Shown: piece by piece, positions 28,237 through 28,971 of the stretch | Position numbering within the stretch: the first letter of the stretch is position 1 | Layout of the letters: each line of letters begins with the position of its first letter | From: Peptococcaceae bacterium | GTDB taxonomy: Bacteria; Bacillota; Peptococcia; DRI-13; PHAD01 | Assembly (NCBI GenBank): GCA_024655825.1 | Contig: JANLFJ010000030.1 | Coordinates: 1 to 40,737, forward strand | DNA: 40,737 nucleotides | Direction of reading: 5' to 3' | Program-made: the position numbers and the translations under genes | The notes under the pieces: generated by a model | Database searches by the model: none | Seen by the model: only the letters and a program-made list of their open reading frames with translations | What the model was told of the DNA's origin: nothing

Positions 28237-28255
28237 AAAAAAACGAACAATCGTT
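28237..28255 (-). terminator. Weak terminator at the end of the structured RNA
   Basis: AACGA pairs with TCGTT (28242-28246/28251-28255) around four nucleotides and runs into T7 on the minus strand. It lies 94 bp before the trpB2 start, so it could end an independent RNA or act as an attenuator. Confidence 0.5.
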
Positions 28256-28746
28256 AAACGTTAAACAAATGGGAAAAGGGTAAGCTTTCTTTGATTCCTT
28301 ACGGAACCCGCTTACCCTTTCCCCGCGAGATGGTACTCCAGTGGAATACGCCCTCCTTTTTTCCCTGAAACGGCCAGGAAACTTTCTCGTTTCCTTATCC
28401 TTGTTCGAACCCCTCTCTTACCGGTCCCAGGAACCCGGTAAGTTTCCCTTAGCGGCCTGTGCGGCGGCTATTTTTTCGAAAAGCTGGTGCGCTTTCCGGG
28501 TTCGCGGGGGAATTCGCCGTCCTTTGGCTCATCTGTTATCTGGTTTTACCGCCAGTACACCGGAATCACTGCTTTTTTATGGTTTTACCATAAAAATTCA
28601 GTTTCCTGCTCGACACCTTTTTGCCTTTCGGCATCTCGGCTGTCGTTCTTTGAATACTTCGCAAAACCCCTTGCAGATTTGCAAAGAACAGTTAATCGAA
28701 CTTTCAGGGTTACCAGGTTAACAACCGGGTGGTTATTTCCTGGTTG
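28237..28746 (-). ncRNA. Candidate ~510-nt highly structured RNA, class unknown
   Basis: It begins at the expected start site of a consensus promoter (28753-28781). The first 33 nt form a near-perfect two-part hairpin (28712-28744). Then come CAAAGAAC/GTTCTTTG (28682-28689/28645-28652), a CGACA-CC/GGTGTCG stem (28611-28617/28638-28645) enclosing TGCC-GAAA-GGCA, and a 43-nt hairpin with a 10-bp stem (28562-28606). Further hairpins lie at 28540-28555, 28417-28442 and 28377-28394, with a 14-15-bp stem at 28271-28323. AACGA/TCGTT plus seven T residues (28237-28255) could end it. The GAAA tetraloop exists only on the minus strand. I find no signature of RNase P RNA, tmRNA, SRP RNA or a T-box. It could instead be the trpB2 leader. 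Confidence 0.6.
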
Positions 28747-28752
28747 ATTCTT

Positions 28753-28781
28753 ATTCTAAAGTAAAAGTTCTCCTCTGTCAA
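28753..28781 (-). promoter_or_regulatory. Strong promoter of the structured RNA / trpB2 leader
   Basis: On the minus strand TTGACA (28776-28781) and TAGAAT (28753-28758) are exactly 17 bp apart. The DNA upstream of the -35 box is AT-rich and includes the dyad GAATTTT/AAAATTC (28793-28809). Confidence 0.8.
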
Positions 28782-28971
28782 TGGCTTTATGTGAATTTTT
28801 ATAAAATTCGTATATATTATCTCATTAATCATATTCCCATCAAAAATGTTCGTCTTTTATAGTCCCGGATGCGCGCAAATGCCTTTTTCACCATATTTTT
28901 AGCTGACTGTAATTCGTGTTTTCAAAAAACCGCTCCCGTCCATTCACAAATCAGCGAATCAGCGAACAAAA

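Follow-up and report, generated by a model that had tools for sequence, protein, structure and literature searches.

The locus between trpB2 and the citrate synthase gene of a Peptococcaceae bacterium raises the question of whether it encodes an RNA in its own right or an elaborate leader of trpB2 and, if the former, what such an RNA might do. By the window we mean the whole stretch of DNA that was analysed, i.e., 40,737 nucleotides of contig JANLFJ010000030.1. Within it, positions 28746-28237 of the minus strand correspond to a predicted folded RNA of roughly 500 nt with start and stop signals of its own. Its predicted features, with the short frame and upstream box discussed below, are as follows.

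28794-28808, minus: CodY-like palindrome AATTTTATAAAAATT, 13/15 to AATTTTCWGAAAATT, 12 nt upstream of the -35 element
28753-28781, minus: promoter TTGACA-17-TAGAAT (TTGACA 28781-28776, TAGAAT 28758-28753, predicted +1 near 28746)
28712-28744, minus: P0, two-part 5' hairpin (predicted fold; relatives have an equivalent hairpin of other sequence)
28702-28709, minus: P1 5' strand CCCUGAAA, which closes the core domain
28371-28701, minus: branched core domain, of variable size across relatives
28363-28370, minus: P1 3' strand UUUCAGGG, pairing with CCCUGAAA
28352-28360, minus: Shine-Dalgarno sequence AAAAGGAGG, whose GAGG part pairs, with covariation, with the region of codons 4-5
28333-28349, minus: P4 hairpin GUAUUCC-ACU-GGAGUAC, which holds the start codon
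28312-28341, minus: mini-ORF CUG GAG UAC CAU CUC GCG GGG AAA GGG UAA (MEYHLAGKG*), with a non-AUG start
28271-28324, minus: P5, 15-bp terminator-type stem (28324-28310 with 28285-28271), with compensatory changes
28293-28308, minus: P5a, inner hairpin of P5, with compensatory changes
28237-28254, minus: small 4-bp hairpin and seven Ts (28243-28237), a back-up terminator under the terminator-scan threshold

The RNA locus in the window

An earlier note on this DNA had described the promoter and its +1 at about 28746; both are present as described, and the promoter is near-consensus, with a score of 11/12 in a promoter scan. The hairpins it had listed are also found on the minus strand (the two-part hairpin at 28744-28712, TGCC-GAAA-GGCA with its GNRA loop and an AU-rich hairpin of 10 bp), its stem of 14-15 bp at 28271-28323 is the 15-bp P5 stem, and its last hairpin followed by seven Ts exists but is weak. 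The fold of the minus strand reaches -194.2 kcal/mol (z = -8.8 against dinucleotide shuffles), with the complementary plus strand folding less strongly (z = -5.9), and two divergent relatives give z = -6.0 and -6.7; judged by the scores of the window and these relatives against shuffles, the fold of the RNA goes beyond chance. Several relatives, G024 and G028 among them, carry a T-run directly after the long P5 stem, which makes this stem, rather than the small 3'-most hairpin, probably the main terminator. The core in the window also contains a tRNA T-loop-like sequence, GGUUCGAAC (28403-28411), that is absent in the relatives inspected.

Relatives and distribution

The separate RNA postulated in the earlier note matches no Rfam family at gathering thresholds, nor plausibly any at relaxed ones. 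The covariance models of Rfam 15 gave zero matches to the window RNA at gathering score and none plausible at E <= 10; in particular, it did not reach the gathering cut-off of the OLE, GOLLD, ROOL, raiA or intron families, and the OLE, GOLLD and ROOL types that the note had brought up stand as analogues only. The relatives overlap no Rfam 15 family at gathering, and relaxed E-values yielded only implausible weak matches. Neither RF00023 nor ARAGORN finds a tmRNA in the window, phage and plasmid collections contain no match to the RNA, and our search of the literature found no account of such a family.

Our own covariance models (R1 for the 3' domain, R2 and R3 as broader successors) raise the family count to some 30 copies, distributed over at least 14 Bacillota genera, mainly Peptococcaceae-like anaerobes. 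A DNA search within the family found the copy of HGW-Firmicutes-12 (G001), which keeps the promoter, the CCCUGAAA/UUUCAGGG closing pair and the 3' hairpin and lies upstream of a beta-CASP metallo-beta-lactamase gene, and an order-level search found that of Peptococcaceae UBA6129 (G024), upstream of trpB2. A DNA pattern detected one copy in UBA5774 and two in HGW-Firmicutes-11, in tandem and 344 nt apart, and the covariance models detected those of G028, G017 (four), G018 (three), G129, G194, G399, G459, G473, G445, G430, G474, G475, G467, G067, G188 (two), G242, G343 and G079. At L053:5640-6280 the tandem copies, compact and 344 nt apart, have separate promoters and an identical mini-ORF, MQYSPKKG. 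Two copies (G017d and G467a) are near-identical and share the same flanks, possibly through shared descent or through mis-binning of MAGs. Carriers are a minority: on inspection, 10 of 398 genomes in a phylum-wide sample were accepted as true, and this patchy spread implies that the RNA is not essential. Copies can also decay, as is evident from a truncated one (L080:4960-5150) that lies just 3' of a purF-like gene and lacks both promoter and 5' domain.

A number of candidates were set aside. Those at L023, L031, L033, L036, L089-L093, L098, L099, L103 and L104 are plain terminators with no Shine-Dalgarno sequence or upstream domain, and the single match in a pattern scan of viral contigs is a chance one. 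A second match in G399 (L035; L081:5002-5067), upstream of a TPP riboswitch and with no Shine-Dalgarno sequence or mini-ORF, may be a remoter copy. A separate, ordinary tmRNA occurs in 15 of 18 carriers; in G000, G024 and G018 none scores above the Rfam cut-off, though G000 is 99.5% complete, and assembly gaps could explain this. The idea that the RNA replaces SRP RNA was dropped, as a normal SRP RNA lies near it in G430.

Genomic neighbours

The gene downstream of the RNA is trpB2 in two copies only, those of the window and G024. Elsewhere, the downstream genes on the same strand encode a beta-CASP nuclease, signal peptidase, epimerase, DUF5050 protein, sigma-54 activator, acyltransferase, GGDEF protein, GntG aldolase or DUF3048 protein, those on the opposite strand encode GroEL, CobT, TrpB1 or a bacterial PH-domain protein, and at least six copies (G017a, G017b, G473, G474, G343 and H11b) face a convergent gene. 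The RNA therefore cannot serve as an obligatory leader of one particular gene. The elaborate trpB2 leader that the earlier note had offered as its second reading is thus disfavoured, there being no conserved downstream association, and its first reading, a separate RNA, is borne out by homologues that keep promoter, fold and 3' hairpin beside unrelated and sometimes convergent genes. A link to PLP enzymes (trpB2, threonine aldolase) was considered and rejected, since the neighbour in G474 is an ordinary, convergent trpB1 and the aldolase of U5774 is just distantly related to that of G129. On the upstream side, where the window has citrate synthase, L002 and L009 have a divergent DUF4931-type gene.

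Conservation of the structure

Compensatory changes, which the earlier note had named as a check on its proposal, are abundant among the homologues. In alignment A7, which comprises 22 members, 27 of the 32 consensus pairs of the 3' domain have changed on both sides with pairing retained, and 91.6% of cells are paired; sliding the partners by one to three columns lowers this to 40-50%. Because the members were aligned to a model, structure is somewhat favoured, but slid and shuffled controls still leave a large margin. P5 has compensatory changes in 12 of 15 pairs, P5a in five of six, and the helix between the GAGG of the Shine-Dalgarno sequence and codons 4-5 has three of its four pairs changed on both sides. 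Outside the 3' domain, five further helices recur with differing sequences, and the upstream order of P0 hairpin, P1, P2 and P3 recurs across relatives in the same manner. Each of P0-P3 is represented by 7 to 17 distinct 5' strands; P1, for example, occurs as CCCUGAAA/UUUCAGGG, ACCUC/GAGGU, CCCAUU/AAUGGG and GUCUC/GAGAC. None of 2000 strand swaps matched the observed pairing for any helix, although the strands were hand-picked by eye for complementarity, so that the result speaks for recurrence at the same place and not for unbiased significance. Assignments of P2 and P3 are restricted to the relatives, the core of the window clade being more diverged. Overall, core length ranges from about 175 to 390 nt with poorly kept sequence, and the best-conserved part is the module formed by the Shine-Dalgarno sequence, the frame and P4/P5.

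We regard a real, stand-alone structured RNA family as close to certain, and its predicted structure and independence as well supported by these comparisons. The family is not in Rfam, and the mini-ORF, the covarying sequestration of the Shine-Dalgarno sequence and the CodY-like box go beyond the earlier note.

A short frame within the terminator module

All well-formed copies have AAAGGAGG or a near variant, a start codon about 6-11 nt further on, 6-9 codons and a stop. The start, in the apical loop of P4, is never AUG; it is UUG, or CUG in the window, G001 and G024. The mini-ORF sits just before the terminator and its frame ends within the 5' arm of the terminator stem, so that 27 copies display the sequence layout of a ribosome-mediated attenuator, a Shine-Dalgarno sequence with a short frame overlapping a terminator. 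In these 27 copies an in-frame stop occurs within 10 codons, and stops are few in the other two frames over the same span. Where the GGGUAR/GGAUAR motif of the P5 arm is used as the stop, its distance from the start is 21, 24 or 27 nt, a multiple of three in every case; in copies that have lost the motif or in which an indel has put it out of frame (G017, G018, G459, UBA5774, G188a and G343), another in-frame stop is found. Exceptions are G188b and G018c, with no UUG or CUG start, and the truncated G467c, which lacks promoter and 5' domain.

The predicted peptides include MEYHLAGKG (window), MEYQLTGKG (G001), MENHSAGKG (G028), MKYTSGNG (G399, read from the second of two UUGs, the one aligned with other copies), MQYTSRNG (G473), MQYVLESKG (G129), MEIHQEVKG (G474) and MQYDLE (G017c). 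All six copies from R3, which were found after the mini-ORF idea had arisen, show the mini-ORF (MEYTSKNG, MQYNRTG, MYSTSPN, MRSFRKG, MQSLTGKG and MQYDLE); five are independent and the sixth, MQYDLE, is from a paralogue of the known G017/G018 copies. Because the Shine-Dalgarno sequence pairs, with covariation, to codons 4-5, peptide sequence is largely set by pairing, and the object of selection appears to be the frame, with the peptide largely dictated by P4/P5. We consider it likely that the mini-ORF is under selection.

Promoters and CodY-like boxes

In almost every copy, TTGACA or TTGACT is followed at a spacing of 17 nt (18 in G001) by a near-consensus -10 element. The -35 element of G343 is weaker, G188b yielded no promoter, and the contig with the G194 copy does not reach its upstream part. 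The CodY-like box of the window occurs at the same spot in G001 and G024. A fit of at least 12/15 to the CodY consensus (12-13/15) is seen in 11 of 24 upstream regions, as compared to a mean of 0.6 and a maximum of 5 in shuffles; the boxes lie just upstream of, or overlap, many promoters, and roughly every second upstream region lacks one. Copies of the G017/G018 type have a similar box across the -35 element, partly a by-product of TTGACA. A CodY gene is present in 16 of 16 carriers tested, which is compatible with CodY control without being diagnostic, as CodY is expected in these bacteria. The putative boxes, predicted from the consensus, suggest that the RNA is made when nutrients run low.

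Proposed mechanism and alternatives

The reading that we favour, tentatively and at a little under an even chance, is that of a stand-alone RNA under nutrient control with a ribosome-operated switch at its 3' end. The gene would have a strong promoter and an intrinsic terminator, and the 5' part of the RNA, with P0 followed by P1 closing a branched core, would be a domain of the ligand- or protein-binding type. In the unbound state, P4 would conceal the Shine-Dalgarno sequence and start codon, and P5 would form and end the transcript. If a 30S subunit captures the Shine-Dalgarno sequence instead, the frame of 6-9 codons would be translated from its weak UUG or CUG start, and the ribosome would reach termination on the 5' strand of P5 and keep both P4 and P5 open. 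Two exclusive states would result, one with P4/P5 folded and the ribosome site hidden and the other with an initiating and then terminating ribosome, so that the state in which the RNA exists, or its fate, would depend on initiation capacity; candidate outputs are termination, RNA stability, sequestration of ribosomes or an effect of the core on a target. Comparison among copies shows the predicted stand-alone gene, the fold, the sequestration helix and conservation of the frame; translation in vivo, CodY control and action in trans are inferences. The broader proposal of a class of starvation-controlled, ribosome-engaging RNAs that act in trans and sense free ribosomes through the hidden Shine-Dalgarno sequence and its 6-9-codon frame is possible but rather doubtful.

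About a one-in-four prospect, in our estimation, is a large RNA with a catalytic or scaffolding role, comparable to OLE, GOLLD or ROOL, whose activity would reside in the core and for which the mini-ORF would be an accessory to release or turnover. Size, ornate fold, an own promoter and patchy spread in anaerobic Bacillota would suit such an RNA, whereas the poorly kept core, of such variable length, next to a best-conserved Shine-Dalgarno/frame/P4/P5 module would not. It is unlikely that the peptide is the product, as a signal or toxin with the remaining RNA as its regulatory leader: the frame is kept and endings such as -KG, -NG and -DG are conserved, but the sequence follows RNA pairing, the peptides range from MQYDLE to MEIHQEVKG and MRSFRKG, and there is neither a signal sequence nor a linked exporter. 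We assign the same low likelihood to a cis attenuator of the next gene (trpB2 in the window), its terminator opened by translation of the mini-ORF; the overlap of the mini-ORF with the terminator arm and the trpB2 genes of the window and G024 agree with it, and the unrelated or, in at least six copies, convergent genes elsewhere do not. A decayed mobile element, e.g., a group II intron or an IS-associated guide RNA, is very improbable. Some genomes are multicopy, HGW-Firmicutes-11 has its tandem pair and one copy is truncated, but no Rfam intron or guide-RNA model matches over the RNA, neither transposase nor reverse transcriptase is among the identified flanking genes, and the strong constraint on fold and promoter disfavours such an origin.

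Comparison with known systems

The few large structured bacterial RNAs that lack an assigned function have proved hard to explain, and a multi-genus family with a built-in, testable module for interaction with the ribosome offers a concrete handle on function: a single codon change distinguishes translation-dependent from structure-only models. Labelling such RNAs noncoding may overlook frames under ten codons. OLE, GOLLD, ROOL and raiA are likewise long, strongly folded, frequent in Gram-positive anaerobes and of unclear function; the RNA described here differs in its conserved Shine-Dalgarno sequence and mini-ORF within a terminator module and in the variable size of its core. RNAIII/hld and SgrS are dual-function RNAs, i.e., regulatory-type RNAs with a small reading frame. 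VcdRP is another (PMC8672173). Unlike in these, the frame here has 6-9 codons, a non-AUG start and a sequence dictated by RNA pairing, and no target is known. With tmRNA (RF00023) the RNA shares the size of a stable RNA and a short internal frame, but it has a Shine-Dalgarno sequence and start codon, and its carriers mostly have a separate tmRNA. Trp-type leaders, uORFC motifs and odc1 share with it a short frame that overlaps RNA structure and terminator, and odc1, a uORF motif, also has a UUG start and a sequestered ribosome site (PMC8632094); unlike these attenuators, the RNA stands alone, its frame is 3'-terminal after a domain of 175-390 nt, and its downstream genes are unrelated or convergent. 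It is clearly assigned to none of these groups and resembles the ornate RNAs in size and spread, the attenuators in its 3' module and the dual-function RNAs in its frame.
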